The translations under genes and the position numbers were made by a program. Positions 2,035-64,000 of a stretch of DNA of 64,000 nucleotides are shown piece by piece. The first letter of the stretch is position 1; the number at the start of each line of letters is the position of its first letter. The notes beneath the pieces were generated by a model, which was not told the DNA's origin, searched no databases, and saw nothing but the letters and a program-made list of their open reading frames with translations. The DNA comes from a virus, in the IMG/VR virus record IMGVR_UViG_3300020473_000011, positions 62,001 through 126,000 of that record. One strand, given 5' to 3'.

Positions 2035-2072
2035 GGCTGACATTGAGACATTGAGATTTATTTGAGCCTATT

Positions 2073-2414: not shown

Positions 2415-2417
2415 TAC

Positions 2418-3983
2418 ATGGCACGCGCACTAGACCTAGCTAAATTCGATGGCAAGATTAAAACGGTGTTGCTATCCGTATCGGGTGGCCGTACGTCACA
2501 CTACATGATCCGCTACTTCTTAGATAACCGTGAAGACGTAGCTCGCCGAATGGGCATCAATGAAAGTGAGCTTGAGTACATCTTTGTATTTGCGAATACA
2601 GGACTTGAGCACGATGATACCCTTCGCTTTGTTCGAGATACTGAGAAGTACTTCGGTATCAAAATCGTATGGGTTGAGGGCGTGCCTGTCTTTGGCGAGC
2701 GTACGGCGACACAGCACCGTATCGTTAACTACGACACTGCCTACCGTCTTGACCAGTACAAAGACGAGAACCACCCTTATACTGCGCACGTGCGTCGTTA
2801 TGGCGTACCTACGATTAGCAAAGTTAACTGCACACGTGAAATGAAGCGTAACGCTATCAATAGTTATATGAAGTCAATCGGCCATGATGAGAAGACGACA
2901 TTTATCACGGCAATCGGCATCCGTTTTGACGAAGAACGCCGCTGTGCAAATAAGCCCGAAGAGCGCAACCTTGTTTACCCAATGGCTCACTGGGTACCAA
3001 CCGTTGAAAAACAAGTCCTTGATTTTTGGAGCCAGTACGAATGGGATCTAAAAATACCGCGCTGGCTAGGTAACTGTGTACATTGCTATGAGAAAGCCGA
3101 CAGTGTTTTAGAACGTGCATATCTAGACTACCCTACAGCCTTTGAGATCGTGGACTACTATGAGAAGACCTATGCAGGTATAGGCTACGAGTTTACGGTT
3201 TACGACGACGCTGAGCCGCGAGCGACCTTCCGTGGTAATGAATATGCAGCTGACATGATTGCGCGCTTTAAGGTGGCACAAGACGACCGCACAGCGCGCG
3301 GTATTCCACTAGAAAATATCAAAGAACACCGTGAGATTTTGGCCGAAGAAAGACGCCTAGCCCGTACGCATATCAACACAGCGCTGAAAGCCTACAACAA
3401 GACGAGCGTGGGCAACCCATTAGCAGCTGCATGGTTTTTCGATAACTGGGATAACTTGAAGTCTGACAGCTTGTATAACGTATGTGAACGCATACTAACA
3501 GAAGTGACCCACCAGCAAAAAATCGGGATTGTTCAAAAGGGTCTAGCGCGTGTTATTGAAGAGTCTGGCCAAGCCTTTATGGTACGTACCCAAAAGCCGA
3601 AGAAGCCCGTTAAGATTGAAGAGTTTAAACCAAAGAAAGCGGCTAATAAGGTGGTTGCAGGCACACGCGCACTACTTGACGGCACGGCACACTTGTCAGT
3701 AGAAGAGGTAATTAAGTTAGTCGCAAAGTTCGCGTACAGGGACTATGCTGACCAACTGACGTACACGAGTGAAGAGCAGCTAGTGGCTACCCTTATCAGT
3801 TATGCGCCTGACATGAACGTACCGACGCCTCAGCGAACAGCGCTACTGATGTATGACATCCTTGCGGCAGTTGACGGTATTCGTGTTATGGATGTCGACG
3901 AGAGCTTACGCAGTGATGTGGCGGTGGCCATGACGAGAATCATGGATGAGGAAGCCTACGAGGACTTGAAAGACGTGGCTTAA
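2418..3983 (+). CDS. PAPS-reductase-like PP-loop protein, 521 aa
   Basis: The N-terminal half carries the PP-loop ATP-pyrophosphatase signature SVSGGRTSHYM (residues ~21-31), then NTGLEHDDTLRFV and a conserved GNCVHCYEKA cysteine pair near residue 219, as in the phosphoadenosine-phosphosulfate reductase/adenine nucleotide hydrolase superfamily. Family members bind ATP or PAPS and are common in large phages, where their substrate is usually unknown. The protein is about twice the usual ~250 aa; roughly residues 290-521 form an extension I cannot assign. Options include sulfur metabolism or DNA/tRNA thiolation; none is shown by the sequence. Last gene of its operon, closed by the terminator at 3991. 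Confidence 0.75.
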   Translation: MARALDLAKFDGKIKTVLLSVSGGRTSHYMIRYFLDNREDVARRMGINESELEYIFVFANTGLEHDDTLRFVRDTEKYFGIKIVWVEGVPVFGERTATQHRIVNYDTAYRLDQYKDENHPYTAHVRRYGVPTISKVNCTREMKRNAINSYMKSIGHDEKTTFITAIGIRFDEERRCANKPEERNLVYPMAHWVPTVEKQVLDFWSQYEWDLKIPRWLGNCVHCYEKADSVLERAYLDYPTAFEIVDYYEKTYAGIGYEFTVYDDAEPRATFRGNEYAADMIARFKVAQDDRTARGIPLENIKEHREILAEERRLARTHINTALKAYNKTSVGNPLAAAWFFDNWDNLKSDSLYNVCERILTEVTHQQKIGIVQKGLARVIEESGQAFMVRTQKPKKPVKIEEFKPKKAANKVVAGTRALLDGTAHLSVEEVIKLVAKFAYRDYADQLTYTSEEQLVATLISYAPDMNVPTPQRTALLMYDILAAVDGIRVMDVDESLRSDVAVAMTRIMDEEAYEDLKDVA

Positions 3984-13235: not shown

Positions 13236-14006
13236 TTAAGATCCTAATTTTGGTATATTGATACGGCCGATTTCGACCGAGCTTGGGTACATGAAAGTCT
13301 TACCCCTATAGGGGTCAAGAATGACCCATTGTTCTCCTAGCCATATATCGGCCTCCGACCCGTAGGTGCCTACCGTCAGTGGGATGCCACCACGAAAGTC
13401 AAAGAGAAGGTAGTCAGCGGGGTAGGATGCTGAATACAACCCTGTGACCTCGCCGTCACCAAACCAACTGCGCAGTCGTGGGTTAAATGCACTTTTACGA
13501 GCCAGTACTGCCCACTTGTAAGGTGCAACGACCCATGCGTTAGCGTCGTCGGTACCACAGCACGTGAACGGGCTGTCATAGCGTATACTTGTCTTGTGCA
13601 TCTTGACGTCAGAGGCAGGTACGAGGCACAGCGTCGAGCTGCCATCATGGCCACTAGACACACCGTTCAGCTGACTAATTTTCTCGAAGTCTTCTAACCA
13701 CTCAGCACTAAGCAGTGTTGCTGCGTCGGTAAACCCCATGAACTCAGTACCGTAATAGTAGCGCGACCATGTGCCCGTATTTTTTCGTTCCGAATAAGCA
13801 TTGGGCGCAATCGGAAGAGAAGCAGGGTCAATAAGCTGAACACCGTACTTACACTCTGTTTCTGATGGCGGCTCGGAGTACATGAAGAACAGTGCCAAGT
13901 CGTCATCAGCCAAGGCATCTTTAAGCCACTTTCGAAGAGACGTGTTAGGGCTTAGACTCGTTACGAAGTCCTGTGATACCCCAATTAGCTCGGCCACATT
14001 TGACAT
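13236..14006 (-). CDS. putative virion protein, tandem duplicate of 14008-14778, 256 aa
   Basis: Very similar to the next gene upstream, with the same length, and the two are separated by 1 bp. Shared blocks include LALFFMY, PPSETECKYGVQLIDP, SAEWLEDFEKI, WAVLARKSAFNPRLRSWFGD and PLTVGTYGSEAD. It carries the family motifs at both ends. Differences cluster at residues ~60-85, 140-165 and 185-195, as expected of exposed loops. A recent duplication within a structural cluster. Confidence 0.65.
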   Translation of the reverse strand: MSNVAELIGVSQDFVTSLSPNTSLRKWLKDALADDDLALFFMYSEPPSETECKYGVQLIDPASLPIAPNAYSERKNTGTWSRYYYGTEFMGFTDAATLLSAEWLEDFEKISQLNGVSSGHDGSSTLCLVPASDVKMHKTSIRYDSPFTCCGTDDANAWVVAPYKWAVLARKSAFNPRLRSWFGDGEVTGLYSASYPADYLLFDFRGGIPLTVGTYGSEADIWLGEQWVILDPYRGKTFMYPSSVEIGRINIPKLGS

Positions 14007-14007
14007 A

Positions 14008-14778
14008 CTACGATCCTACTTTTGGTATATGTACGCGGCCTATTTCGACCGAACTTGGATAGACGTATGCACCACCTCTTGGGAATGACCGAAAATGGTC
14101 AAGGTGCTCACCCAGCCAGACGTCAGCCTCCGACCCGTAGGTGCCCACGGTTAGTGGGATGCCACCACGAAAGTCAAAGAGAAGGTAGTCAGCGGGGTAG
14201 TTCGTCCCTTTACTGTGCGGTTGTTCGCCGTCACCAAACCAGCTGCGCAGTCGCGGGTTAAATGCACTTTTACGAGCAAGAACCGCCCACTTAAAGGCAC
14301 CTCGTTTATTCGCGTTCGAGTAATAGGTTCCGCAGCGTGTGTAACTGTTGCTGTAGCGCACACCTGTCTTGTGCATCTTGACGTCAGCCGATGGCACGAG
14401 ACACATCGTCGAGCTGCCATCGTGTTCAAGGGACGCACCGTTCAGTTGATTAATTTTCTCGAAGTCTTCTAACCATTCAGCACTAAGCAGTGTTGCCGCG
14501 TCGTTAAATCCCATGTACTCAGTACCACTGTACCACGGGGAAAAGCGGCCACCCCTCCATGAGTGATAGGCATTTACAGGCAGTGGTAATGCTTTAGGGT
14601 CAATAAGCTGTACGCCATACTTACACTCAGTTTCTGATGGTGGGTCTGTGTACATAAAGAACAACGCTAAGTCATCATTAGCTAATGCCTCTTTAAGCCA
14701 CGTGCGAAGAGACGCTTTAGGGTTTAGACTCGTTAAAAAGTCTTGTGAAGCCCCAATAGGGGCTGCATTAAGTGACAT
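14008..14778 (-). CDS. putative virion protein, tandem duplicate of 13236-14006, 256 aa
   Basis: Partner of the preceding duplicate: FFMYTDPPSETECKYG near residue 40 and DFRGGIPLTVGTYGSEADVW near 205. The N-terminal 30 residues are also conserved (GASQDFLTSLNPKASLR versus GVSQDFVTSLSPNTSLR). Start ATG 14778 follows GAGCGAGA. Role inferred from cluster. Confidence 0.65.
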   Translation of the reverse strand: MSLNAAPIGASQDFLTSLNPKASLRTWLKEALANDDLALFFMYTDPPSETECKYGVQLIDPKALPLPVNAYHSWRGGRFSPWYSGTEYMGFNDAATLLSAEWLEDFEKINQLNGASLEHDGSSTMCLVPSADVKMHKTGVRYSNSYTRCGTYYSNANKRGAFKWAVLARKSAFNPRLRSWFGDGEQPHSKGTNYPADYLLFDFRGGIPLTVGTYGSEADVWLGEHLDHFRSFPRGGAYVYPSSVEIGRVHIPKVGS

Positions 14779-27790: not shown

Positions 27791-29359
27791 CTAATGGCAA
27801 ACTGGTGTTTTAGCAAGCTCAACGCCCTGTACCGCATGGGATGCCAGCGCAGCCCCCGCCTCAGAGAGCGTCAGGTATGTCTTATCGGCACCTGCGGCCT
27901 CGATACCTTCAACATAGTCACTGTGCATCGCGTTGGCAACAATAAGCCCATCATAGCCACCTTCACGCAGTTTACGTGCTGAGATCATACACGCTTCATG
28001 ACAATCCATGGCTAAGATACAGACATCAAGGTTTGACGTGTCGAGGTCTGCCCATACATTACCGTGCTCAGCATCCCCGTAAACAGCATTAAAGCCAAGG
28101 TTATCGACAAGCTCTTGGACTTTGTCAGGGTTCGAGTCGATACCGATAACAGCGACACCCGTTGCGGCAGTCGAACGGTAAGCAGCACGGCCAACTTTAC
28201 CCAGACCCATGACCAGCACTTTTGCATCACCCAGTGAGATTGGCTCTTCGTCAGGGTGACGGACATCGCGCTGGTACTTATTCAATCGGCGCTCGAATTT
28301 ATCGAACAGTGGGTGTGCGAAACGGTTAAGCGGCGCTGACACTAAGAATGATAAGGCCACGGCCAATGCCAGTGTTACGCTATAGTCAGGCATCACGGTT
28401 GCTGCTGCAATTAAGCCGAACTCAGAGTAGTTCGTCAAGGTTACCCCTGTTAAGAATGCAGTACGTGATGTCAGTTTAAAGGCCACCAGTAAGCCAAAGA
28501 ATAAGGCCGCCTTAATCGGCAGTAGTACCGCCATCGTTAACGCAAAGACCCAGTCATTCGCCGTCGGTAAGCCCTTCATGCCGATGGTTAGGAAGAAGGC
28601 AATCAGGAACATTTCTTTTAAGCCCCACATCTTACCGCCTAGCTCACCTGCCTTCGGGTGGGATGCTGCAAGGACACCCATAATAAGGGCACCCAGTTCA
28701 CCATGACCAATCCCCACCGAGTAGAAGCCGTAGCCACCTACCACAAGCGCAAGGAATAAGCCTGCCAGTAGTAACATTTCATCGTGACCACTGACGTCTA
28801 GGATCTTATTAACCACAGGACGGGCAAAGAATAGCAGTAGTAGCGCAGCTGACCACACCGACGGGATTTCACCACCAGCGACCAACATGAACGTAATAGC
28901 AATCAGGTCTTGTACAATAAGTATGCCGATGGCGAGCTGACCATGAATAGCCTTTAACTCTGACTTACTGCCGAGCACCTGTGCTGCCAGTACGGTTGAC
29001 GAGAAGGTCAGCGCTATCGACAACATAAAGGCAGTATGCCACGCAATGTCGAACCCAAAGTGGATGACAGGGGCTGCCACCAGCGCAGAGATACCAAAGT
29101 GTAAAATACTGGTACCCGCCACATCGGCCTTTAAAACTTTCTTAGGCTTGAGCTTTAGACCCACCGTAAAAAGCAAAAGAAGTACCCCGACGTGGGCAAG
29201 TTGGTCAAGGGTTTCCTTGCCGTTATCTTTAAGCCCAAGGTGGTCAGTCAGAATGAAGACCGCAAAGCCTGCGGCAAGATAACCAATCAGGCTGGGTAAG
29301 CCGACACGTGTAGCCAGTAGACCCAGTACAAAGGCCATACTGATCCAGATAAGTTCCAT
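27791..29359 (-). CDS. KefB/KefC-type cation:proton antiporter with TrkA-N domain, 522 aa
   Basis: Residues ~1-370 contain about 12 hydrophobic segments of the Na+/H+ exchanger (CPA2) family, with HVGVLLLLFTVGLKLKPKKV and IALTFSSTVLAAQVLGSKSE characteristic of the Kef/YbaL branch. After a charged linker (~370-390) comes a Rossmann-type TrkA-N domain: VLVMGLGKVGRAAYRS, then VIGIDSNPDKVQELVDN. Such proteins exchange K+ or Na+ for H+ across the inner membrane and are gated by nucleotides. ATG 29359 has GGAGG 8 nt upstream. Full length and apparently intact. Unusual among phage-like genes; may have been taken from a host. Confidence 0.88.
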   Translation of the reverse strand: MELIWISMAFVLGLLATRVGLPSLIGYLAAGFAVFILTDHLGLKDNGKETLDQLAHVGVLLLLFTVGLKLKPKKVLKADVAGTSILHFGISALVAAPVIHFGFDIAWHTAFMLSIALTFSSTVLAAQVLGSKSELKAIHGQLAIGILIVQDLIAITFMLVAGGEIPSVWSAALLLLFFARPVVNKILDVSGHDEMLLLAGLFLALVVGGYGFYSVGIGHGELGALIMGVLAASHPKAGELGGKMWGLKEMFLIAFFLTIGMKGLPTANDWVFALTMAVLLPIKAALFFGLLVAFKLTSRTAFLTGVTLTNYSEFGLIAAATVMPDYSVTLALAVALSFLVSAPLNRFAHPLFDKFERRLNKYQRDVRHPDEEPISLGDAKVLVMGLGKVGRAAYRSTAATGVAVIGIDSNPDKVQELVDNLGFNAVYGDAEHGNVWADLDTSNLDVCILAMDCHEACMISARKLREGGYDGLIVANAMHSDYVEGIEAAGADKTYLTLSEAGAALASHAVQGVELAKTPVCH

Positions 29360-29399
29360 AAAGGGCACCTCCAATAATCAATAGTCTGTGGGAAGCGCC

Positions 29400-42556: not shown

Positions 42557-42946
42557 ATGATACTGAAATACTTCTTACACATGGGCGTATGCCTCGCCTG
42601 TGCCATTCTGAGCATCGTAGCCCTAGAACTAGGACAAAGTTATGCTGGTAACTCCCAGCAAGGCGCTCTGTTAATCTCAGGCGTGCTAGTGGCCATTGGG
42701 GTTGTTGCGACGAAGCTTACTGATAAGTCACCGCGCAAGTTATTCCAGAACCTCACACTGCGTGGCTTCTTGGATGATTACCTCGTGACGATTATCGTGG
42801 TACTGCTGGTGCTAAATGCCGCGTTTGGTGGTGGGTTCAGTGAAGAGCCTACACGGCTCATTGTGCTGGGTTTATTATACATAGCGGTGAAGCACTTACT
42901 TCGTGCGAATGAAGCACGCTTCACCATGATGGGTCAGCTTAAATAG
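42557..42946 (+). CDS. four-span membrane protein, 129 aa
   Basis: Hydrophobic spans CLACAILSIVALELG, LLISGVLVAIGVVAT, LVTIIVVLLVLNAAFGG and LIVLGLLYIAVKHLL. Starts 16 bp after a terminator with no clear ribosome site or promoter, so expression may depend on read-through. Its end overlaps the converging gene at 42939 by 8 bp. Confidence 0.65.
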   Translation: MILKYFLHMGVCLACAILSIVALELGQSYAGNSQQGALLISGVLVAIGVVATKLTDKSPRKLFQNLTLRGFLDDYLVTIIVVLLVLNAAFGGGFSEEPTRLIVLGLLYIAVKHLLRANEARFTMMGQLK

Positions 42947-43367
42947 TACTGAGGTAATCCTCTAGTCCGTCTTCCAAAACCTCGGCCAACTCGTCGGGGT
43001 TTTCGCTCATTATCGCCAGCGTTGTCCACGCTATCTGCGACCACTGCTTGTATGCCTTCCCTTTTTCCATTCGACGTGTCACCTCTGCATGGATGTAAGC
43101 AGCGCCTTCCTTAATGGTGCGGTACAAGCCTGCCTGTGGTGGCAGAAGCTCTGTGAACTCGACTGACTCACTCACGCGAGTGCCCTCGCCTGTGCCTGCC
43201 GCACCGACTGAAAGGCGGTAACAGTTCGTGATAAGCACAAGGCGGTCGTCTGAGGTGATGGCCACAATGTCATCTTCCGTTTCAGAGTCGATGATCTGAG
43301 TGGCCGTCAGTGGTTCACCCTGCTGGGTGATGTAGTCCAGATCTTTGCGACATTCAGGCTTAGTCAT
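42939..43367 (-). CDS. hypothetical protein, 142 aa
   Basis: ATG 43367 overlaps the upstream stop (ATGACTAA). Beta-type first half (DIVAITSDDRLVLITNCYRL), helical second half. Last gene of a ~6.3-kb leftward operon that starts at the promoter at 49275. Confidence 0.7.
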   Translation of the reverse strand: MTKPECRKDLDYITQQGEPLTATQIIDSETEDDIVAITSDDRLVLITNCYRLSVGAAGTGEGTRVSESVEFTELLPPQAGLYRTIKEGAAYIHAEVTRRMEKGKAYKQWSQIAWTTLAIMSENPDELAEVLEDGLEDYLSTI

Positions 43368-43674
43368 TCGATGCTCGCAGTCGGCTGGCCAGTACGTCTT
43401 GGTACCCGATCATGTCTGCCCACCATTCACTCGCGGTCGCATCCGCATGGGTGGCTGAGTTAATCACTGTGATCGTGTCGAAGGTCTCTTGGATATTCGC
43501 AACGTTATCAGGGTTTGGGCAGGCTGACTTGACCAGCTCCCAACAGTCACGCGGCGAGTTCAACTGCACGTCGATGCGGTCAGCCGTAAATAAAGCAAGT
43601 GTTTGCACCTCAAGCTGGGCTAGTTCGTCGGCACACGACCAACCCAATGCAATGTTTTCCTCAGCGCTACGCAT
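43360..43674 (-). CDS. hypothetical protein, 104 aa, related to C-terminal half of 43667-44182
   Basis: ATG 43674 overlaps the upstream gene by 8 bp. CPNPDNVANIQETFDTI ... WWADMIGYQDVLASRL matches CPNPDDVIAIQEAYDLI ... WWLDMSNYQRVLGKRL of its neighbour. A partial tandem duplication. Confidence 0.68.
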   Translation of the reverse strand: MRSAEENIALGWSCADELAQLEVQTLALFTADRIDVQLNSPRDCWELVKSACPNPDNVANIQETFDTITVINSATHADATASEWWADMIGYQDVLASRLRASND

Positions 43675-44182
43675 TTGTGTTGCCCTGTGCCTGTAGACGC
43701 TTACCCAGTACACGCTGGTAGTTGCTCATATCAAGCCACCACTGAGGCTCAGACACTGACCACACCACATCTTTATCAATGGCCTCAATCAAGTCGTAGG
43801 CTTCTTGGATAGCGATAACGTCGTCAGGGTTAGGGCATAGGTCTTTCAGTGCCTGCCAGCGGGCTTGGGGTTCACGCTTCGAGTCGTTCATACTGTTGAT
43901 AAAGAAACGCTGACGTTTCACGTGGTTTTGCTCTTCCAAGAACGCAGTATACCCTTCACGGGTACCACCTTGCTCGAAGAACTGGATCTCATCATCAAGC
44001 TCTTGTAGGTACTCGGCTAAGCCGTTATCAAAACCTGATGACTGCGCATTACGTGCGTAGACGTCTCTGTACGCTTTCTTGAACTCAAGTGAGTCTTCGT
44101 CAGCCTTATCACCTACTGCGTGCTTAGCGGCAGCCCGTGCTGCGGCCATGGCCATTGTGTCTGGATGACAATACCATCCCAT
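43667..44182 (-). CDS. hypothetical protein, 171 aa
   Basis: N-terminal helical Ala-rich start (MAMAAARAAAKHAVGDKADE), charged middle, C-terminal ~65 residues shared with the next gene downstream. Ribosome site AGAGGTAACCAGT. Confidence 0.7.
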   Translation of the reverse strand: MGWYCHPDTMAMAAARAAAKHAVGDKADEDSLEFKKAYRDVYARNAQSSGFDNGLAEYLQELDDEIQFFEQGGTREGYTAFLEEQNHVKRQRFFINSMNDSKREPQARWQALKDLCPNPDDVIAIQEAYDLIEAIDKDVVWSVSEPQWWLDMSNYQRVLGKRLQAQGNTNA

Positions 44183-44224: not shown

Positions 44225-44512
44225 CTAGTTAAGCACTCGAACGGGGATTAATTCTTCGAAGGCCACCACACGGTAGCTATCGTGCTCGCCAATACCCTGA
44301 TTGATTGCCCCATGCACGCGATGACGTGGATGGTCATTGTCATACTCAGTATAGCTCACGCAATACATTGCACTTAGCGCACTGTGATGTACAACGTTCA
44401 GCACCTGCACCACACGCGTACGCAGCGGTGACCACGGCGTCGGGTACCCTATCCCTTCTTTAATGCGGTAGGATGTCCCCGCCTTGAGAGGATTAACGGC
44501 GCTCAGCATCAT
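44225..44512 (-). CDS. hypothetical protein, 95 aa
   Basis: The frame is open to 44677, but the upstream part overlaps the membrane-protein gene; ATG 44512 (or 44509) within a 20-bp overlap is preferred. Beta-type, with SAMYCVSYTEYDNDHPRHRV and a C-terminal FEELIPVRVLN. The ending resembles VEFTELLPPQ of 42939, hinting at a shared small domain. Confidence 0.6.
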   Translation of the reverse strand: MMLSAVNPLKAGTSYRIKEGIGYPTPWSPLRTRVVQVLNVVHHSALSAMYCVSYTEYDNDHPRHRVHGAINQGIGEHDSYRVVAFEELIPVRVLN

Positions 44513-44852
44513 CGTGAGACTGCTTAATAAGCTCTTCATTAAACGCAGCCACATGCTTATCAAAGTCTGCCTTCTGCGCCTCAATAAGCTTTTTAGTTTC
44601 GCGATTACTCTTCGTAATAAGGACAGCGAAACACAGGCAGGACAGTGCTCCCCACATCCACTCGTCAAAAGGATCAAGCGCTGCGTAGCCTGTTAATACA
44701 GCCGCAATTTTTAGCATGTGGACTGAACGCATAAGCCATGGGTGTTGGTTGAATGAGTGGTGTCGATGCGCCGCGAGGGCACCTGCTAGATAGCCTAATG
44801 TCACAGCCATAAACAGAAGCATGATCTGTAGGGTTGCTTGGAGCATGACCAT
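44493..44852 (-). CDS. membrane protein, 119 aa
   Basis: N-terminal span LQIMLLFMAVTLGYLAGALA, then LKIAAVLTGYAAL and WMWGALSCLCFAVLI, then a charged helical tail (RETKKLIEAQKADFDKHVAA). Starts in a TAATG overlap. Looks related in layout to the next gene upstream. Confidence 0.68.
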   Translation of the reverse strand: MVMLQATLQIMLLFMAVTLGYLAGALAAHRHHSFNQHPWLMRSVHMLKIAAVLTGYAALDPFDEWMWGALSCLCFAVLITKSNRETKKLIEAQKADFDKHVAAFNEELIKQSHDDAERR

Positions 44853-45136
44853 TATGACTGCCCCACTCGTTCACGTGTCACACGACGGCTCTTTGCTGAG
44901 ACCACCACATAGAGAAGCGTCGCTACCGTGACAGGTAACGCTGACATTTCAGGCTTGATAGCCATGTGACCAAACAGAAGTGCAACCATTGTTAGCAGTA
45001 TGTTCGAGGCGGCATACCAGTTATGGTCGTACTGCGGGAGCTTACTGAATGCCATGAACTTACCAGCTGTGACCCCAATACCAATGGCAACTATCATCAT
45101 CAGTGATGGATAGACGGTCATCATAAACGTGTTCAT
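44852..45136 (-). CDS. membrane protein, 94 aa
   Basis: Three spans: SLMMIVAIGIGVTAGKFMAF, SNILLTMVALLFGHMA, LPVTVATLLYVVVSA; a basic tail (KSRRVTRERVG). Overlaps the upstream gene by 4 bp. Confidence 0.68.
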   Translation of the reverse strand: MNTFMMTVYPSLMMIVAIGIGVTAGKFMAFSKLPQYDHNWYAASNILLTMVALLFGHMAIKPEMSALPVTVATLLYVVVSAKSRRVTRERVGQS

Positions 45137-45762
45137 ACTAAAGGTTCCTCATCGTTTTTTAATTGTGCTGCAATCTCAGGATGCAGGCACTGTGCTTTTG
45201 ATTCTAGGATAATACTATCAGGCCGCGTACGGAGCTGGTGACTACGCACAAGCTCAGCCTGCCGATGTTCAATCATGTTAGCTTGGCACTGAATCATTTT
45301 AGTGAGTGTCTGCTCAACAGTTAGCGCACCGAGGCTGTACTCGGTGAGTAAGGCACTGATGATTGGGTGCGTCTTGGCCAGCTCAATAATAGCGGGATCA
45401 AAGACATCGTCAACGCGTTTAGGGTGACTATCGCCCTCTCGGTTAAAATACGTTTTAACGAGGCTAACAAGGTATGCCGCCGTCGGGGTCTTTATCTCTG
45501 TGTTGCGGCCATGGTCTCGATACACGGTCGCATACGGCACAAAGTGAAACTGTCTAATGCAGATTTGACTGCGCTTATCGGCAACCGCCAAGCAAACATG
45601 GTCACCGTCGTCTATCGTACAGCTAACCTCAAGCTGTGGGCATGTCTTAACCAGTATTTCGGCGGCTTCATCGAAGATGAGCTTTAGCGCCCCTAAGCTA
45701 ACAAACTCACCGACACGCTTATACTGGCGCTGTAGTTGTGGGTGTATATCGTTCTTATCCAC
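45133..45762 (-). CDS. hypothetical protein, 209 aa
   Basis: Uses a GTG start at 45762 that overlaps the upstream stop, with AGGG before it. Helical N-terminus, central beta part (EVSCTIDDGDHVCLAVADKR), C-terminal helical Gln-rich part. Unknown. Confidence 0.68.
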   Translation of the reverse strand: MDKNDIHPQLQRQYKRVGEFVSLGALKLIFDEAAEILVKTCPQLEVSCTIDDGDHVCLAVADKRSQICIRQFHFVPYATVYRDHGRNTEIKTPTAAYLVSLVKTYFNREGDSHPKRVDDVFDPAIIELAKTHPIISALLTEYSLGALTVEQTLTKMIQCQANMIEHRQAELVRSHQLRTRPDSIILESKAQCLHPEIAAQLKNDEEPLV

Positions 45763-46522
45763 CGTAATACCCTATTGCTGCTTTGTGTGCAGGTGATACC
45801 GTATCAAGCATGTTGCAGTCATTACACTGGCTGCACTTAACAGACTGGTAAATGGTCTCATCCGTATCAACGACAGACACTTCCGTCGGACACTCGTTAG
45901 ACTCACCCATTGAAATCGAACCATTGATGTTCACTGATGGCTGACAGAACTTACCCATGCTCTCAAGCTGACGGATAGCCGCCCCGATAGTATTAAACTG
46001 CGGATGGTTTGCGATGCTGCGTAAGTTGAAACAGCGTGTACCTTTGCTGGTGGTTGTCTTCTCAGACACCTTCAAGCGTGTACGTGCTCGACCCTGCGGG
46101 TAAATTGGAGCCGAGATATAATCAAAGAACTTCGCATTAGGATGCGCTGCCAGTGTACGCGCCAGCCCGTCTTTATCAAGGCTACGTGGGTAGTACAGTG
46201 GGTCGTTCACGATCTGGAAGTTGACTTTAGGGTACGGCGTCATGTACTTGGCCACCAGCTCAGGGTCTTTCACCCACTCGCCATGAGTACACACTGACAC
46301 GCTGCCTTGGAAGTTCAATAGCAAGTAGTTCATCATGTCGTTATACGCTTGGTGGTCTGTCGGCTCACCACCGCTGATTATGATGACACGGACGCCGTTA
46401 CGCACTGCAAAGTTCACGCTCTTCATGAACGTACCAAAGTCCATGCTACCGCTCGACGGTAAGCTATCAATCATGCAGTGGCTACAGCCCATGCTACACT
46501 TGTCGGTAATACGAATAATCAT
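45755..46522 (-). CDS. radical SAM/SPASM-like iron-sulfur protein, 255 aa
   Basis: ATG 46522 follows AAGGAG by 7 nt. Residues 8-16 hold the CxxxCxxC cluster motif (KCSMGCSHC) that binds a 4Fe-4S cluster and SAM; IIISGGEPTDHQA (~46-58) is the GGEP SAM-binding motif. C-terminal cysteines (TRCFNLRS, KFCQPSVNINGSISMGESNEC, KCSQCNDC) form a SPASM-type auxiliary cluster site. SPASM proteins usually modify peptides or proteins; no precursor peptide is obvious nearby. Rare in phage genomes, target unknown. Confidence 0.82.
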   Translation of the reverse strand: MIIRITDKCSMGCSHCMIDSLPSSGSMDFGTFMKSVNFAVRNGVRVIIISGGEPTDHQAYNDMMNYLLLNFQGSVSVCTHGEWVKDPELVAKYMTPYPKVNFQIVNDPLYYPRSLDKDGLARTLAAHPNAKFFDYISAPIYPQGRARTRLKVSEKTTTSKGTRCFNLRSIANHPQFNTIGAAIRQLESMGKFCQPSVNINGSISMGESNECPTEVSVVDTDETIYQSVKCSQCNDCNMLDTVSPAHKAAIGYYGG

Positions 46523-46532
46523 TAGCGGCTCC

Positions 46533-47342
46533 TTAAAAAGTCCAAAGCTGAGTTGCACGGTCACCTTCTGAGGCATTAATAATACTAGACGAGACAAACG
46601 TGGTTTCTCCCGATGCCAACCGTCGTATGTGCGCTCTTCTTAGATGCGTAACAGGACGCTTGTGCTGCACTGCTCGCGTGGCAGCGCCATCACGCGAACG
46701 TGCTGGTCGGTCAAGCTGTACCGTGTAGAAAGCAACAGGGCGTGCTGCCTTTTTGTTACGTTGAGCATTAATACGGTCACGCGCTGTATAGGCAGGTGCG
46801 TTATGCTTGAGTGTCACATTGTTTGTTGAAATCGTCAGTAGTAATGAAATCAACCAGTCTCGAATGCTGTCTGGGTTGACGGAGCTTAGTATTTCGGCCT
46901 TATCGGGGTCGGTGTTCTTTTCGCTTCGGATCCAACGCCAATCGTCTGTTGCCTCAAGGGTGATCATCATAGGAAGGACGACCACTTCGTCGTCTTCGTA
47001 GACAACCGCAATACTAACACTCATTGTACGGTCAGCCACGTGGCACATGTAGTACATACGCTGCTTGTCATTGTCCGTATTAGGGAACTCAACTGTAAAT
47101 TGCTCGAAGGGCGGTAGCGCCGAGCAAGACTCTATGGTATCTGGTTCAACCGTAGGCACAGACGATGTATTTTTAACGAGGATAACGGGTACATCACGGG
47201 TACGACCCTTATCAATGTAGGGAGCAGCATCTGGATTCTTAGCAACCATGCGGTCGATGTCCGCTGATAGTTTAGCCGCCAGTATATGATAACGGCTCGC
47301 TAATGGATGGCGCATAGTCTTGTTTTTGTTCTTATTCTTCAT
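46533..47342 (-). CDS. hypothetical protein with basic HLRRxHIRRL C-terminal motif, 269 aa
   Basis: The frame extends to 47738 but overlaps the HTH gene; ATG 47342 has AGGAG 7 nt upstream. Very basic N-terminus (MKNKNKNKTMRHPL). The end, PVTHLRRAHIRRLASGETTF, resembles a short motif at the C-terminus of many unnamed phage proteins. Ten bp upstream of the radical SAM gene. Function unknown. Confidence 0.7.
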   Translation of the reverse strand: MKNKNKNKTMRHPLASRYHILAAKLSADIDRMVAKNPDAAPYIDKGRTRDVPVILVKNTSSVPTVEPDTIESCSALPPFEQFTVEFPNTDNDKQRMYYMCHVADRTMSVSIAVVYEDDEVVVLPMMITLEATDDWRWIRSEKNTDPDKAEILSSVNPDSIRDWLISLLLTISTNNVTLKHNAPAYTARDRINAQRNKKAARPVAFYTVQLDRPARSRDGAATRAVQHKRPVTHLRRAHIRRLASGETTFVSSSIINASEGDRATQLWTF

Positions 47343-47352
47343 CATCTTACTC

Positions 47353-48126
47353 CTATACCATAATGACTTTCTGAGGCACCAAGTAAAAGTTTGTAGTCTC
47401 TTCGTCATTGCATGGGTCAATGTATAGCACCTCGATGCGGCGGTTGTTTCGGCTATCAAATTCGCAAAGCGTAACGTCAATGATTGACGTGTAGTAGCCC
47501 GCACAGTGATCAGTGCAATGAAGACGGACAGCCTCAAGTACATCGGCTTTCTCACCTGTGCATACAAAGTCAGTCGCGTTCTCCGCATACAGACTATCGT
47601 GGTAGAGCGTATACAGCGTCTTACCGAGCGGACGATACAATGGGTCGTCCTTCGGTAGCAGCGCTTGGAACTGATGCGTGTAGTGCATGTGTGCATCAAA
47701 GTGAGGCTTAACCAGTGTATGAGCACGCTCGTAGGCATCTTTGTACTGACCTTGTGTTAGTGACTCAAAGAAGCCTCCACCTGACAGTTGATGCTCTGCG
47801 TATTGGTCACACGCATCTTTGTGCTGCTCACTAACGCCAGCATGGTAGCGAGCATCAATCAGGGAGCGGATAGTTGGCGCTGTACCACCTTCTGTTAATA
47901 AGCGCTGTGGGTTCACTGCCAGTGCCCCTGTGATAATATTTACAAGCGTGGCTTTAACCGACTTCGGTGCAACCTTGTTATCACTGGTTGAGCGCCAGCC
48001 ACGGACAGTCGCTGCATTCACGAGGAACAGCGACGCCACTTGGCTATTACTTAAATTAGCGAGCTTCTGTAGCTCGAAGTATTCCAGTTTCAGTAACTCG
48101 ACTGGGTTCATTGATGTTGCTAGCAT
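47353..48126 (-). CDS. putative HTH DNA-binding protein, 257 aa
   Basis: Residues ~22-45 (NLSNSQVASLFLVNAATVRG, then WRSTSDNKVAPKSV) fit a helix-turn-helix. The remaining ~200 residues are alpha/beta with a C-terminal EVLYIDPCNDEETTNFYLV. Starts within the upstream gene (7-bp overlap). Another candidate for the operator-binding regulator, though it lies deep in a regulated operon. Confidence 0.65.
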   Translation of the reverse strand: MLATSMNPVELLKLEYFELQKLANLSNSQVASLFLVNAATVRGWRSTSDNKVAPKSVKATLVNIITGALAVNPQRLLTEGGTAPTIRSLIDARYHAGVSEQHKDACDQYAEHQLSGGGFFESLTQGQYKDAYERAHTLVKPHFDAHMHYTHQFQALLPKDDPLYRPLGKTLYTLYHDSLYAENATDFVCTGEKADVLEAVRLHCTDHCAGYYTSIIDVTLCEFDSRNNRRIEVLYIDPCNDEETTNFYLVPQKVIMV

Positions 48127-48689
48127 AGTTCGCCATGTTCCTGTTCAAAGGCTTCAATGTCTACGTTCAAACGACGTAGGTTATCTTCGGCTTTTTTCAG
48201 CCGTGTGCGAGCGAGGGCTTCTTGATCTTTGTCGCCTTTCACAGAGGCCAGTAAGGCTCTTTCATCTTCGACGTCATTCACGAACTGGTCTCGGCCTTGA
48301 ATGTAACTGGTACGCAGTATTGCAAGCGAGCGCTCAGACTGAGCAGCCGTAGGGTCTTCGATGTCAGCACGTTTCATCACGACTGGCTCGTCTTCACGCA
48401 GTGAGACCTTATCAGCGCGGATAACGTAGGCTTCGTTTGATGACACGTGATAGATAGCATAGTACTGACACGTAACAGGGTGCACAGACACTTGAATGTT
48501 TGAGTCATTCGAATGTGAAATGATGTCGTTATAGATGTCATCACCGAAACACACATTCTCAAGCAGTGGCATCTTACGTGATGAGATTTCGCTAAGTGGC
48601 ATGACGTTCGTCATTGGCACAAGGTCTACACGGTAAGGCGTGTTACCTTGGCCTTTAAATTCAAAGCGCTTGGTTAGTGGTAAGCTCAT
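48120..48689 (-). CDS. hypothetical protein with C-terminal coiled coil, 189 aa
   Basis: N-terminal ~100 residues beta-type (YRVDLVPMTNVMPLSEISSR); residues ~120-185 a charged coiled coil (ALARTRLKKAEDNLRRLNVD). Unknown. Confidence 0.7.
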   Translation of the reverse strand: MSLPLTKRFEFKGQGNTPYRVDLVPMTNVMPLSEISSRKMPLLENVCFGDDIYNDIISHSNDSNIQVSVHPVTCQYYAIYHVSSNEAYVIRADKVSLREDEPVVMKRADIEDPTAAQSERSLAILRTSYIQGRDQFVNDVEDERALLASVKGDKDQEALARTRLKKAEDNLRRLNVDIEAFEQEHGELC

Positions 48690-48719: not shown

Positions 48720-49214
48720 TCACACCGAGTAGTTGCGGCCGTCTTCAAAAGCTTCCATCACGCGGTCGCGCTGGGTGCTCTCGAAGTTGTCGTAGTCTTC
48801 TTTGCTTACTAACTCATGCGTACATGCGCCCTCAGCCCAGTGGTAGAAGTGCTCGATAGCCTTGTTGGCTTCGCGTAATGACTTATACACTTCCATTGAG
48901 TCGCCTTCGACGCAGTCACAGTCACGTGACCAGTAGTAGACGTAAACAGGCTTGTTGAAGTAGCGCAGGCGTAGTTTTAGGTTCTCGCGAATGGCACGGT
49001 ATGAGCCGACGATGCGTAACTTACGACGCATTACGTTATCGAGGTTAATGCGCTTCTTGTCATTAATACGGACACGTAGCATCGCGTCGGTGTGGTCTGA
49101 TACCACGTTGATTTGGTTACCAAAGATAGTTACTTGGTACAGGGTTAAGCAGTAGCCATTGCCATGCTTCTTAAAGTTGATCTTATCTCGGATCAGGCTA
49201 GTCAGTTTATTCAT
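48720..49214 (-). CDS. hypothetical basic protein, 164 aa
   Basis: First gene of the long leftward operon. Basic and beta-type (MRRKLRIVGSYRAIRENLKL, then YVYYWSRDCDCVEGDSME). No known family. Lies 61 bp from the promoter at 49275-49302. Confidence 0.7.
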   Translation of the reverse strand: MNKLTSLIRDKINFKKHGNGYCLTLYQVTIFGNQINVVSDHTDAMLRVRINDKKRINLDNVMRRKLRIVGSYRAIRENLKLRLRYFNKPVYVYYWSRDCDCVEGDSMEVYKSLREANKAIEHFYHWAEGACTHELVSKEDYDNFESTQRDRVMEAFEDGRNYSV

Positions 49215-49274: not shown

Positions 49275-49302
49275 AGTATATATCGTTGTACAATGATGTC
49301 AA
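49275..49302 (-). promoter_or_regulatory. operator-promoter for the 49214-42939 operon
   Basis: Minus strand TTGACA (49302-49297), 16 bp, TATACT (49280-49275), with TCATTGTACAACGA filling the spacer. The best-matching promoter in the window. Confidence 0.85.
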
Positions 49303-49983: not shown

Positions 49984-50616
49984 CTAAGGACGCACCTCCG
50001 TGATACCAAAGTGCTCAGCCAGCGTGTACCAATCCTCAAGGTGACCCACCAGCTGACGACGGCGCTTAGCCAAGAACGTGCGCAGTCTCGGTCTGGGTGA
50101 CTGGCTGATCAACTGGTCAATTAAGCGCAGGTTCCCCTCCCCGATAAGGCTCGCAAACTTGAAGTAGTCGTGATGCTCTTCACTGTCCAGCGTGGCCACC
50201 GTGTCTTTCAGGTTCTCGTAAATCTTGATGTCCTTCATGAGCTGGTCGGGTTCACGTTTCGTCGGGAGCATGATGGCCGTGCATAGTGCCACGTTCCTGT
50301 CGTGCTTACGTAAGGTCACTGCACTGGCCTCATGACGCTTTGCAAAGAGTTCCGTGATGGTTGGGTCATTCGGAAAGAACGGCGCAGCATCGTTCATCCC
50401 ACGGCGTGTGAGATCAAGCTGACGCCCTATTGTGAGGTACACAGTATCAGCATCCGCCTTATGATTGGCACAGCGCTGCACCTCACGGGGTGTCGCGCCC
50501 AGTTCACTCATACGGGACACAAAGCCCGACCGTTGTACGAGGATAACTTGCAGGTCGTTACCCCCTTCAAAGATTTCATTATCCACGATGCGTGGACGTG
50601 CCAGTATTCGGCTCAT
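49984..50616 (-). CDS. hypothetical protein, 210 aa, member of four-gene paralog set
   Basis: Last of four co-transcribed genes whose C-terminal ~40 residues share a pattern: here GNLRLIDQLISQSPRPRLRT, then FLAKRRRQLVGHLEDW. The N-terminal ~150 residues differ between members. Starts 4 bp inside the upstream gene. No known domain. Confidence 0.68.
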   Translation of the reverse strand: MSRILARPRIVDNEIFEGGNDLQVILVQRSGFVSRMSELGATPREVQRCANHKADADTVYLTIGRQLDLTRRGMNDAAPFFPNDPTITELFAKRHEASAVTLRKHDRNVALCTAIMLPTKREPDQLMKDIKIYENLKDTVATLDSEEHHDYFKFASLIGEGNLRLIDQLISQSPRPRLRTFLAKRRRQLVGHLEDWYTLAEHFGITEVRP

Positions 50617-51296
50617 TCTGCCGCCTTACGTAGCTTATCACCTAAACGACTGCGCAGCTCATTGATGACACCGACGTGGTCTAGTAGCTGCTTACGTCGC
50701 GTACGCAGTTGCTCACCCTGTGACGCATAGCGGTCTTGTTTAAGTAAGTTATCAATGACACTCAGCTGTGCCTTGGCGACCATCCACGCCATTTGCGCAC
50801 GTTGCATAGCAATCGGAATGAAGGGCGCTGCGAACGTCTCAAGGCGTTTAGTAGTGTCACTAATGTAATCACTCACAAAATCACCGTAATCACCGTCAGG
50901 GAACGTTACAAGGCTACACAAGGCACTTAGGTCGCCACTGCCTGTCAGGTAGCACGGGAAGTTCGCATTTATCTGCAAGTCCGACCCTTCGTAGTCGTCA
51001 TCCATCATGTCAGGGGTGACGAGTTCTCTAAAGTTAATCGACCACATTGAGCACTCGTGAGACATACGGAACATCGCAGTTGCAAAGTCGTTCTCATGGG
51101 CAATGTGCTTCATGTAAAACGCAGGGGTCAGCCCACGCTCAGTATCATCAGTGGCAAGAAAGGAAGTCGCCGACCGTGATTTACCATAGTCAGTTATACG
51201 TACCAGCATACGCGGGATAAGCTTCCCTTTCTTTCGACTGTGCGGCGTTTCACATTCCGTCGCTAAAATTTCAAAGTTATCGAGTGCTCTACTCAT
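50613..51296 (-). CDS. hypothetical protein, 227 aa, four-gene paralog set
   Basis: C-terminal AQLSVIDNLLKQDRYASQGE, then QLRTRRKQLLDHVGVI matches the family pattern. N-terminal region contains SFLATDDTERGLTPAFYMKH and ANFPCYLTGSGDLSALCSL. AGG 8 nt before ATG 51296. A 112-bp gap separates it from the upstream member. Confidence 0.68.
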   Translation of the reverse strand: MSRALDNFEILATECETPHSRKKGKLIPRMLVRITDYGKSRSATSFLATDDTERGLTPAFYMKHIAHENDFATAMFRMSHECSMWSINFRELVTPDMMDDDYEGSDLQINANFPCYLTGSGDLSALCSLVTFPDGDYGDFVSDYISDTTKRLETFAAPFIPIAMQRAQMAWMVAKAQLSVIDNLLKQDRYASQGEQLRTRRKQLLDHVGVINELRSRLGDKLRKAAE

Positions 51297-51408
51297 GGGT
51301 TGACCTCATTTGGTTTGTACACATACCTCAGCGTATGTCACTTTTTAATTATCATTTAAGGTGTCTGCGTCTCAGCGGGCGATACGATACAGGACAACCG
51401 TCGTATTG

Positions 51409-52185
51409 TCACGACCCTGCTTCATGGGCAATGGCATCCGCTGCACGACGTAGCTGCTTAACCAGCTGAAACTGATGCTCAATAAGCGAGACCTTCGTCG
51501 ACGTGTAGAAGTCTTCTATTTCGTCAAGAATGTCGGGGGTTAGGAAGGGCTTGTTGGCCTCGGCCTCCGCGCGAAAGTGTTGACCATCGAGTGCCCCATT
51601 TCGCATCATGCGCTGTATTATCCGTTGGGTGCCCTCACCCATAATGCACAGGTTGTTGAGGTAACGCTTCGTCTGATCCTTGAGCGTATCAAGGTTTACC
51701 ATACTCCCGATGTTTGTCGTAACCAAAGTAAGTTGATCAGGCGTTGTGCTGGTGGGTATATAGATGGGCATGGCGAGACAGGCTCTTGGTTGTTTAGCAT
51801 AACGGTCAGTCTCACGACATACAGCAAGGTAAGCCTGACTAGCGTCCCCATTGAAGTAGCCACGCGCCTTTGTCAGGCCGACGGCGTCTGAAAAGGGAAT
51901 GAAGTAATACGTTAACGGTGTTGCCGTAGACAGTAGCGTCTCATCGCAAAGGGCTTCAATCCGCTTTTTATCGACCTCGTAGACACACGCATATTGCAGT
52001 TGGTCTGCTAAGTCCATAAACGCGTTCGTCACACTTAGGACACTCTTCTGCATTAGCGCGAACGGGTAATACGGCGTTAGCTTCACAAAGATGACGGATG
52101 CGCCCCCTTCCTCAAACCAGTGGGCTTCGGTCAGCCGTGGCTCCACCAGCTCGGGTGTATAGTCCTCCCAACGATACTTACTCAT
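51409..52185 (-). CDS. hypothetical protein, 258 aa, four-gene paralog set
   Basis: SVIFVKLTPYYPFALMQKSV near the start, PRACLAMPIYIPTSTTPDQL in the middle (similar in place to NRACICTAVLDVPRGIQDGL of the next member), and a helical C-terminus (LIEHQFQLVKQLRRAADA). Overlaps the upstream gene by 8 bp. Confidence 0.66.
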   Translation of the reverse strand: MSKYRWEDYTPELVEPRLTEAHWFEEGGASVIFVKLTPYYPFALMQKSVLSVTNAFMDLADQLQYACVYEVDKKRIEALCDETLLSTATPLTYYFIPFSDAVGLTKARGYFNGDASQAYLAVCRETDRYAKQPRACLAMPIYIPTSTTPDQLTLVTTNIGSMVNLDTLKDQTKRYLNNLCIMGEGTQRIIQRMMRNGALDGQHFRAEAEANKPFLTPDILDEIEDFYTSTKVSLIEHQFQLVKQLRRAADAIAHEAGS

Positions 52186-52810
52186 AGCTTGAAGCCTTTA
52201 CCGCCTCAAGCGCATTGATCTGACTTAGCAGGTACCGACGGCGTGAGACAAATAAGTCCTTGATGTCACTCTCAGCTGTGTCGAACAGCGCTTTGATGAG
52301 GGCGAGCTGATTTGTGGCCAGTGCTTTAGAGGTATTAAGACGGCGCTCTTCACTTGGACGTAGGTAGCCCTGTGTATTCGCGTGGTCGGCATAGTTATAG
52401 ATGCTTTCAGCGAGACCATCTTGAATACCGCGTGGGACATCAAGCACTGCTGTGCAGATGCACGCACGGTTGTTACGCTGGCGGTAGATCAGTAGTCCTG
52501 TGTAGCTGCCTGAGTTACCGTAGCGACCCTTAATGGCGGCTTTGCTTGCCACCTTATAGGCTTCTACTTCGCTCACATCGTGGTAGCTGTTGTCATGGAG
52601 AATGTTGGAAACAGCCAGTGCATCGCGCTCATCAAGCAAGTAGTTCAAAAAGGTAGCACCTTCGAAGAGCGTATCTGTTTTTAGGCGGAACTCGGTATAG
52701 TCGAACTCATCGGTCAGGGGAAGCAGTAACGCACGGGAACCTGTCTTCTTATCGGTAAAGACATGATTAGTTAGTGTGTGGTCTGGGTGGTCTAACGATG
52801 CGCTTAGCAT
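52178..52810 (-). CDS. hypothetical protein, 210 aa, four-gene paralog set
   Basis: Start ATG 52810 has GAAGGA about 9 nt upstream; ATGs at 52819 and 52846 are less well placed. C-terminal NQLALIKALFDTAESDIKDL, then FVSRRRYLLSQINALE is the clearest copy of the family motif. First gene of the operon driven by the promoter at 52866. Confidence 0.66.
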   Translation of the reverse strand: MLSASLDHPDHTLTNHVFTDKKTGSRALLLPLTDEFDYTEFRLKTDTLFEGATFLNYLLDERDALAVSNILHDNSYHDVSEVEAYKVASKAAIKGRYGNSGSYTGLLIYRQRNNRACICTAVLDVPRGIQDGLAESIYNYADHANTQGYLRPSEERRLNTSKALATNQLALIKALFDTAESDIKDLFVSRRRYLLSQINALEAVKASSYE

Positions 52811-52865
52811 ATCGGTCATTCCTTCGGGGCTGCCATAGGCGGCCAATTAATCGGTTAATGAGGTC

Positions 52866-62929: not shown

Positions 62930-64000
62930 CTACTTAGGTTCGAACTGTTTGTGACAGGTGATGATATGGTCGGCCAAGACAGGGTCTAGTTTGTGCTCTT
63001 TGGCCAAGTCGCCGAATTTAGCGACTGCATTACGTACCTCGTCGATGATGGTCTCGGCGCGGCGCTTAGGCACATTACAGTACTGGGCAAACGCGTGTAT
63101 ATCATCCAGCGTATGACCAGCACTCTTACCATTCAGCGTCAGCTGGTGGCTCTTCGTCCAGCGCCCGCTAGGGTCGTATGAGAATGTCATATCGTAAGCA
63201 GGTGATAAAGACCACTGGCCACGTTTGTTCATCAAAAAGCCGAAGTTCTTAGAGTGGTCGTCAAAGTTAACTGCAAAGTGATTGAACACCGTGCGTCGAA
63301 ACTGTTGCTCAATATCAACTTGCGGTAGTCTTAATTCTCGCATCGACATAATCAATTGTTCGTAGCTATACGCGGCGACATCATCACGGTCGATATGCGC
63401 CAGCCCGCACCAGCTAACGAAATGTACCTTATTGCCACGCTCATCACGGTCGAAGCGCTCGGTAACAAAGTGGCGGGCGCTGCCATCATCCAGTAGCTCA
63501 CAATGCGCCATGTTGATCCCCGCCTCTGCGCACAGTAGCGAATAGATGTATTCAACCACCGTCATATCATTCGGGTCGACGCCGTCTCGGTCTTTATTAT
63601 TAGATATTCCATCGAACTTAATAAGATAGTAGCCAAAACCCTCGGGTGCTTTTACTTGGCCTGAGCGAACTTCGTTACGCTCTTTGTGCCATGCAATCAA
63701 TGCCTTTGCTCGTGCGCCACCAGCCCCTGACGTACCAACACGAATAGCATCACTTAGGTTATCATGCTGATCTGCGGCCAGTGTTGTCTGGAACGCTTCA
63801 CGCTCATTAACGATGTCATTCGCGAACTGGGCAAGGTCGGCCACGTCGAACGCTTCACTTGTTTCCAGTGCACGTGATGACGGGTCGAACTCAAGTGCAC
63901 CCATACCACGCTGACCGATGTAGCATAGTTTCTCTACAGGGTTCAACGAGTCGGGCTTGCGACCGTTCTTGGCCAACCACTGGTTAATGATTTTGTTACC
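62930..64000 (-). CDS. hipA: HipA-family serine/threonine kinase toxin, N-terminus cut off by the window
   Basis: Open to the window edge (first visible residues GNKIINQWLAKNGRK), 356 codons visible plus stop. Family marks: GMGALEFDPS, glycine-rich loop GTSGAGGARAKAL with the serine that is autophosphorylated in HipA, Lys strand GYYLIKFDG, catalytic NFDDHSKNFGFL and metal-binding LSPAYDMTFSYD. HipA kinases phosphorylate glutamyl-tRNA synthetase or other targets and cause dormancy; they usually pair with HipB. No HipB lies downstream, so it would have to be beyond the edge. All visible catalytic motifs look intact. Confidence 0.85.
   Translation of the reverse strand, partial: GNKIINQWLAKNGRKPDSLNPVEKLCYIGQRGMGALEFDPSSRALETSEAFDVADLAQFANDIVNEREAFQTTLAADQHDNLSDAIRVGTSGAGGARAKALIAWHKERNEVRSGQVKAPEGFGYYLIKFDGISNNKDRDGVDPNDMTVVEYIYSLLCAEAGINMAHCELLDDGSARHFVTERFDRDERGNKVHFVSWCGLAHIDRDDVAAYSYEQLIMSMRELRLPQVDIEQQFRRTVFNHFAVNFDDHSKNFGFLMNKRGQWSLSPAYDMTFSYDPSGRWTKSHQLTLNGKSAGHTLDDIHAFAQYCNVPKRRAETIIDEVRNAVAKFGDLAKEHKLDPVLADHIITCHKQFEPK

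Follow-up and report, generated by a model that had tools for sequence, protein, structure and literature searches.

A gene for a radical SAM enzyme in a very large phage genome raises the question of which type of enzyme it encodes, and whether its substrate is encoded beside it or is found elsewhere in the infected cell. The gene lies in the window, i.e. the stretch of 64,000 nucleotides analysed here, which corresponds to bases 62001-126000 of a 281,557-base (281.6-kb) IMG/VR virus record. A first-pass annotation, made from the sequence alone, had described a radical SAM/SPASM protein, had suggested the adjacent basic protein of 269 amino acids or one of the small proteins of the same operon as its possible substrate, and had noted that a modification system of this sort in a phage-like element would be new to it.

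The phage and the radical SAM gene

A tail sheath protein (PHROG 23, E 3.9e-73) is encoded in the record and a baseplate wedge protein is weakly matched; as judged by these matches, the record is that of a jumbo phage with a contractile tail. The sheath protein has 68.8% identity with one encoded on a 128-kb Pseudoalteromonas plasmid and approximately 39% identity with those of Rhizobium phages near 200 kb, on the basis of which the host is probably a marine gammaproteobacterium or a similar bacterium.

The predicted protein of 255 amino acids matches PF04055 with a score of 40.2 bits against a cut-off of 29.5 (E 5e-10, Pfam), which bears out its description as a radical SAM protein, and no other protein of the 281,557-base record matches this family. 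The cluster motif and the GGEP motif that had been claimed are also both present, as CSMGCSHC and within SGGEPT (Table 1); the GGE is found in all 43 aligned sequences of the enzyme family described below, and P54 in 41 of them. The ATG start codon at 46522 has a strong Shine-Dalgarno sequence, AAGGAG, ahead of it and is separated by 10 nt from the stop codon of the gene coding for the 269-aa protein. A longer version of the protein, starting from a TTG codon at 46597, is unlikely, since methionine occupies the aligned first position in 40 of the 43 sequences and the Shine-Dalgarno sequence is located at the ATG.

The gene is part of a run of genes on the minus strand which begins at 49214, downstream of a promoter-like sequence (49302-49275), and which would form a single operon. 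The spacer of the presumed promoter contains the palindrome TTGTACAA, of which there are 148 copies and which looks like a putative phage-wide operator.

Table 1 Features of the radical SAM gene and its gene run, with positions in the window
Feature	Position	Strand	Basis or remark
Twitch-type radical SAM protein CDS, 255 aa (best reading)	45755..46522	-	PF04055, translation, Shine-Dalgarno, AlphaFold model
CX3CX2C (C9, C13, C16; CSMGCSHC)	46475..46498	-	Invariant, 43/43; predicted ligands of the SAM-binding [4Fe-4S] cluster
GGEP (residues 51-54, within SGGEPT)	46361..46372	-	Predicted SAM binding; alignment of 43
C164, fifth invariant non-core Cys	46031..46033	-	43/43; candidate H-atom donor or alternative cluster ligand
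Putative Twitch-type auxiliary-cluster segment, C193-x17-C211-x21-C233-x2-C236	45815..45946	-	Pattern in 43/43 and secondary structure
269-aa protein; N-terminal part acidic, C-terminal part very basic and containing HLRRAHIRRL	46533..47342	-	pI; same gene run; relationship to enzyme not supported
209-aa ORF; its GTG start overlaps the 3' end of the enzyme gene	45133..45762	-	Same gene run
94-aa hydrophobic ORF, GRAVY 0.60	44852..45136	-	Same gene run
119-aa ORF	44493..44852	-	Same gene run
257-aa ORF, upstream in gene run	47353..48126	-	
189-aa ORF, upstream in gene run	48120..48689	-	
164-aa ORF, first gene of presumed operon	48720..49214	-	
Presumed operon promoter, TTGACA-16-TATACT	49275..49302	-	Promoter scan, 11/12 consensus bases
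Palindrome TTGTACAA in promoter spacer	49286-49293	-	Repeat family D1

The enzyme family and its distribution

The first relatives were encoded by a 462-kb uncultured phage, by the Bacteroides phage BS-TP1 (gp91), by a 599-kb Photobacterium damselae record named 'plasmid p1_508' and by a Selenomonas plasmid, which is also an IMG/VR viral contig (L055). With an alignment of these first relatives and the window protein, 54 loci were found in viral_contigs; 39 of these are near full length, and the other 15, which were partial matches, were left out of the counts. The 43 rows on which conservation was counted consist of these 39 viral loci, L002, L003, L004 and the window, and include near-identical rows (e.g. 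L017/L019, L024/L025/L031, L035/L036 and L002/L027). A further alignment of 36 rows (A5) was obtained by removing six near-identical rows, leaving out L002-L004 and adding L063 and L064. When viral_contigs was scanned with one protein at a time, neither the window enzyme nor its Photobacterium relative gave any relatives, and a scan with L022 found three contigs, all of which were already in the set. Two Vibrio phage proteins (L006 and L007), in which the core aligns and the C-terminal cysteines are not kept, were left out of the family.

Residues T6, C9, C13, H15, C16, S50-G51-G52-E53, H57, G81, Q103, Y111, R145, C164, C193, P195, E207, C211, C233 and C236 are invariant in the 43 rows. The 35 other rows of A5 have 22-36% identity with the window protein, and because the cysteines are conserved at this level of identity chance is excluded and the radical SAM gene at 45755-46522 is real. 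In the phylogenetic tree the window and Photobacterium proteins are paired weakly (88/42), within a group of six which is well supported (99/96). The branches of the tree are long, so that, from the sequences, this looks like an old family rather than a recent capture.

In genome_contigs, 16 stretches fitted a search pattern and five of them encode relatives, those on a Fibrobacter and a Muribaculaceae contig matching along most of the length; the pattern was stricter than that used for viral_contigs and the counts are not directly comparable. A search with the family profile at E 1e-30 found one of 395 genomes of the phylum of the Muribaculaceae contig, this being the source genome itself and thus a positive control, and none of 398 genomes of another phylum, which had no such control, with at most six candidates scored per genome in both searches. 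The distribution appears to be virus-biased, which is indicative only, absence from the genomes being weak evidence.

None of the models in the NCBIfam, Pfam and PHROG libraries searched is specific to the enzyme family. All 36 members compared with Pfam match PF04055 and seven match Fer4_12. The NCBIfam model matched most often at E 1e-8 is a tungsten-cofactor maturase model (15 of 36 members), and only three and two members reach E 1e-10 with the PHROGs phrog_16999 and phrog_13987. These two PHROGs, which match 63 and 88 residues of the window protein only, share with it a phage-borne radical SAM core, as do radical SAM proteins of Thermus and Campylobacter phages. The novelty assumed for a phage modification system applies to the family, which is without a model of its own in these libraries, but not to its setting, since BFVD, a structure library of viral proteins, contains many radical SAM proteins of phages. 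A search of the literature on radical SAM enzymes of phages and jumbo phages, mostly outside subscription journals, found no paper on this family, and the word 'radical' does not occur in the accessible part of a jumbo phage survey (PMC7824862). The proteins constitute a new, virus-biased family, widespread and undescribed, within a known kind of enzyme.

The C-terminal cysteines

The cysteines of the C-terminal region had been taken to be of the SPASM type. The seven-cysteine SPASM pattern, CX9-15GX4C-gap-CX2CX5CX3C-gap-C as printed in PMC6231123, was found in none of the 43 family sequences, whereas the four-cysteine Twitch-type pattern C-x17-C-x(15-30)-CxxC was found in all 43, the first gap being exactly 17 residues in each and the second 21-24, and a fifth cysteine (C164) is also invariant. 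The SPASM assignment is thus not upheld, and what stands of it is the presence of an auxiliary-cluster-type C-terminus on a phage radical SAM enzyme.

In the AlphaFold model of the 255-aa protein (pLDDT 91.9, pTM 0.90), strand 202-204, the sole hairpin strand assigned, is located between C193 and C211, and the CxxC follows helix 221-230; C193 would thus lie ahead of the predicted hairpin, C211 behind it and the CxxC behind the helix. This order of cysteines relative to strand and helix agrees with that given for BtrN, in whose fully ligated Twitch cluster one cysteine precedes and one follows the hairpin and two follow the helix (PMC6231123). The C-terminal segment folded alone had a pLDDT of 75 and matched no PDB chain with a Z of at least 2, and no radical SAM chain in the PDB was found with its sequence profile. 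Two matches of this profile to GATA factors (E 0.11 and 0.14) were taken as chance CxxC matches. A Twitch identity is suggested by the cysteine spacing, the predicted secondary structure and the whole-fold alignment, and a one-cluster Twitch-like layout, not SPASM, is the best reading.

Comparison with known enzymes and the probable reaction

The best matches of the whole model in the PDB were EpeE (Z 15.2), SkfB (15.1) and BtrN (14.5), tied within 1 (VIA), and these were followed by SuiB, CteB (5why, 5wgg), viperin-like enzymes and SpeY; absence of a family from the fold-search listings was not counted as its exclusion. Radical SAM folds align broadly and the rank of a match does not, therefore, fix the function. 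In NCBIfam the best E-value was for AlbA, which scored 32.5 bits where the cut-off is 850, and the best 25 of 33 matches of the window protein were all far below the curated cut-offs, the best of them covering the core only. A close match to a housekeeping enzyme, which the first-pass annotation had named as evidence against its reading, was likewise not found, none of MoaA, NirJ or other housekeeping models being above its cut-off among the same 25 matches. The SPASM maturases (AlbA, PqqE, anSME, MftC) share the radical SAM core and an auxiliary-cluster-type C-terminus with the phage enzyme, and differ from it in the seven-cysteine pattern and, for AlbA, in the low model score.

BtrN, the Twitch-type 2-deoxy-scyllo-inosamine dehydrogenase of butirosin, is similar in size (246 residues, compared with 255), in its CX3CX2C motif and in having one presumed C-terminal cluster with one cysteine on either side of a hairpin and two after a helix. 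Its first cysteine spacing (C169/C187) is presumably also 17 residues. The structural alignment covers 197 residues of the 246-residue BtrN chain at approximately 10% identity. BtrN differs in that it belongs to an antibiotic cluster, whereas the phage enzyme is encoded outside one and has a fifth invariant cysteine. In BtrN, dehydrogenation is associated with a Twitch cluster with full cysteine ligation (PMC9012708, PMC6231123), and this low-potential cluster probably accepts an electron in a two-electron oxidation (PMC9012708). By analogy, the most likely outcome in the phage enzyme, at somewhat less than an even chance, would be a two-electron oxidation in which the auxiliary cluster serves as electron acceptor. 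A redox-neutral epimerisation, or return of hydrogen via C164, as in EpeE, would be the next candidate and a rather less probable one, and other reactions, taken together, are slightly less improbable than this. Both oxidation and epimerisation are possible, since the presumed cluster cysteines number four, like those of BtrN, and C164 is left over as a further invariant cysteine.

The alternative with most in its favour is an EpeE-like epimerase acting on a polypeptide, either of the host or of the phage, or on a sugar, in which C164 would, after hydrogen abstraction from an alpha- or sugar-carbon, return hydrogen from the other face; it is regarded as possible, if on the unlikely side. EpeE/YydG is the best match among solved structures by sequence profile (E 3.3e-12, residues 3-111), by Foldseek (4.6e-7) and by VIA Z. 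EpeE contains two [4Fe-4S] clusters, its catalytic cysteine, Cys223, is proposed to complete the epimerisation, and it appears to be leader-independent (PMC8326336); the phage enzyme likewise has in C164 an invariant cysteine beyond its four presumed ligands. That the closest PDB sequence and fold are those of a peptide epimerase, not of BtrN, favours a polypeptide substrate and counts against an oxidation of the BtrN type. However, the Z-score is tied with those of SkfB and BtrN, the homology detected by profile covers the core only, the EpeE/YydG model TIGR04078 scores 21.4 bits against a cut-off of 300, and no small precursor peptide resembling EpeX, or any other, recurs beside the gene across 41 loci (ORFs of at least 35 aa). 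The phage protein has no N-terminal RRE, strand 1 being formed by residues 2-6 and the first cluster cysteine being residue 9; an RRE is also absent from some radical SAM enzymes of RiPP pathways.

Nucleotide, DNA-base or cofactor chemistry of the MoaA or viperin kind, or base hypermodification, perhaps protecting the phage DNA, is considered unlikely. The fold and profile matches include MoaA and viperin, the phage carries a thymidylate-synthase-family gene, and a HaeIII-type endonuclease (RE_HaeIII), DNA methylases and a Tad2-like anti-defence domain occur, as do RtcB and a deaminase, as neighbours of the enzyme at single loci. The sequence matches are, however, to the shared core only, with none of the best 25 of 33 reaching its cut-off, no base-modification neighbour recurs, and thymidylate synthase is common in phages. 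The single neighbours suggest accessory islands with no shared pathway.

Neighbouring genes and the substrate

Modification of a protein of its own operon (the 269-aa, 209-aa or 257-aa protein or a small ORF), as had been proposed at first, would fit the tight packing of the genes on one strand, with the short gap ahead of the enzyme ATG and the overlap of the 209-aa ORF, and the fold relatives EpeE, SkfB and SuiB, the substrates of which are peptides. The 269-aa protein is basic, as described (pI 9.4), the pI being 11.8 for the last 100 residues and 5.2 for the first 169. Its last 100 residues resemble the ends of plasmid proteins, with 34% identity over 98 aa to a Burkholderia plasmid protein. 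It has no relative in phages or in viral_contigs, and the motif HxRRxHxRR was found in one of 39 loci, the window's own, on account of which the protein was rejected as a family-wide substrate. The 209-aa ORF likewise has no relative in viral_contigs, and no significant Pfam or PHROG match.

When 1259 ORFs from 41 loci were compared all against all, the enzyme cluster was present in 37 loci; the ORF picking had missed the enzyme in four of the 41, including the window, and the listing of neighbours was made with the gene forced in. No other ORF cluster was present in more than eight of the 41 loci, those found consisting of dispersed accessory genes, for the most part from related phages, and no ORF of the window was in any of the clusters listed. 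The neighbours were also scanned against Pfam (130 of the 156 ORFs listed, within three genes of the enzyme, at 27 loci), and none of the best 25 of 48 families by count was found in more than two of the 130 ORFs. The neighbours vary between lineages, and the conserved co-occurrence that had been suggested as a check was not found in the relatives searched. Since the neighbours are not conserved and the 269-aa protein is paired with the enzyme only here, a dedicated adjacent substrate is unlikely among ORFs of at least 35 aa, and modification of an own-operon protein is regarded as quite unlikely.

That the gene is a neutral passenger or is decaying is highly improbable, for although it looks dispensable, given that the Pseudoalteromonas plasmid and Rhizobium phage records with the sheath proteins most similar to that of this phage do not belong to the enzyme-bearing set, its catalytic and cluster residues are invariant in 43 of 43 rows at 22-36% identity, its frame is intact and its Shine-Dalgarno sequence is strong.

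Discussion

The protein is, on balance, probably a stand-alone accessory radical SAM enzyme of the Twitch type, encoded by the phage. Following established radical SAM chemistry, C9, C13 and C16 would hold a [4Fe-4S] cluster at which SAM is cleaved to a 5'-deoxyadenosyl radical, and this radical would take a hydrogen atom from a substrate carbon in the open barrel, with a second, fully ligated cluster on C193, C211, C233 and C236 lying beside the substrate. Because no gene travels with the enzyme, the substrate is probably already present in the infected cell rather than being a dedicated peptide, and would probably be a host metabolite, a sugar, a nucleotide, or a protein either of the host or widespread among phages. 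The enzyme would presumably be read from the operator-bearing promoter together with small lineage-specific genes. Takeover or accessory genes of phages are usually expressed in this way.

A broader and rather doubtful possibility is that an old, almost exclusively viral family of minimal Twitch enzymes, spread across unrelated phages (giant contractile-tailed phages, Bacteroides phages and a Selenomonas phage-like plasmid), rewrites a carbon centre of a host molecule during infection, in takeover or counter-defence and with no partner gene. Radical SAM enzymes carry out reactions that are otherwise hard to reach, and such rewriting might oxidise or epimerise a residue of a host protein or inactivate a defence-related metabolite. 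A coherent viral family in which all catalytic residues are kept and no partner gene is found would mean that many phages need one particular radical reaction on a target that varied hosts contain. If the substrate is an ordinary metabolite, the protein would be one more auxiliary enzyme; otherwise, identification of the reaction may reveal new chemistry of host takeover or counter-defence, or a new enzyme for the editing of peptides, sugars or nucleotides.

Palindromic repeat

The palindrome TTGTACAA, the extended form of which is AATCRTTGTACAAYGATT, has 148 copies in 279,557 bases of the whole virus record (G000), where a first-order Markov model predicts 7.6. It is 29-fold above the zero-order expectation in the same record, the next palindromic 8-mer being at 4.5-fold. 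Of the 31 copies within the 64-kb window, 10 are inside picked ORFs, although these ORFs cover 84 % of the bases. Several copies are located exactly within the spacer between the -35 and -10 elements of promoter-like sites, and the palindrome resembles an operator or stoperator used across the phage. Among the 15 listed of the 36 papers matched by a literature search for the 8-mer, none was on a phage.

Two runs of similar small ORFs in the window look like local duplications from inspection of their sequences and from repeat D2, and had no database match where searched. Some of these ORFs have a promoter bearing the putative operator.

Features of the virus record and of other replicons
Feature	Location (strand)	Support
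Palindrome, examples	window 49286-49293, 49853, 52877, 53846, 55883, 60800, 61738
Small-ORF runs	window 49984-52846 (-), 42939-44182 (-)	sequence inspection
Sodium/hydrogen exchanger with TrkA_N domain	window 27791-29374 (-)
HipA-like C-terminal domain	window 62930-63976 (-)	PF07804, E 2.7e-48
Thg1-family tRNA-His guanylyltransferase	L071 (stretch of the record) 13446-14321 = record 139446-140321	PF04446, E 1.2e-31; PHROG 4717
Poly(A) polymerase head/CCA-adding type protein with HD domain	L078 (stretch of the record) 2033-3385 = record 268033-269385
Aminopropyltransferase and radical SAM genes, Vibrio phage vB_VpS_PG28	L006 3102-4762
Tail sheath gene, Pseudoalteromonas plasmid	NZ_CP072685.1 72046-73890	68.8 % identity to sheath of this phage

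Other phage genes and plasmid-annotated relatives

The virus also encodes a sodium/hydrogen exchanger, a Thg1-family tRNA-His guanylyltransferase, a protein of poly(A) polymerase head/CCA-adding type, and a protein with a HipA-like C-terminal domain, possibly the product of a toxin-antitoxin or persistence gene of the phage. In Vibrio phage vB_VpS_PG28, a polyamine aminopropyltransferase gene adjoins a radical SAM gene distinct from that of the enzyme studied here.

The closest named relative of the enzyme is found on Photobacterium damselae 'plasmid p1_508' (NZ_CP090497.1, L004; 598,737 bases), which may be a very large phage-plasmid; the 30.8 kb looked at contained 41 annotated genes, the majority hypothetical. 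The 128-kb Pseudoalteromonas plasmid NZ_CP072685.1, carrying a similar tail sheath gene, is probably a phage-plasmid relative of this phage, and the sheath match gives a hint of the phage's host.
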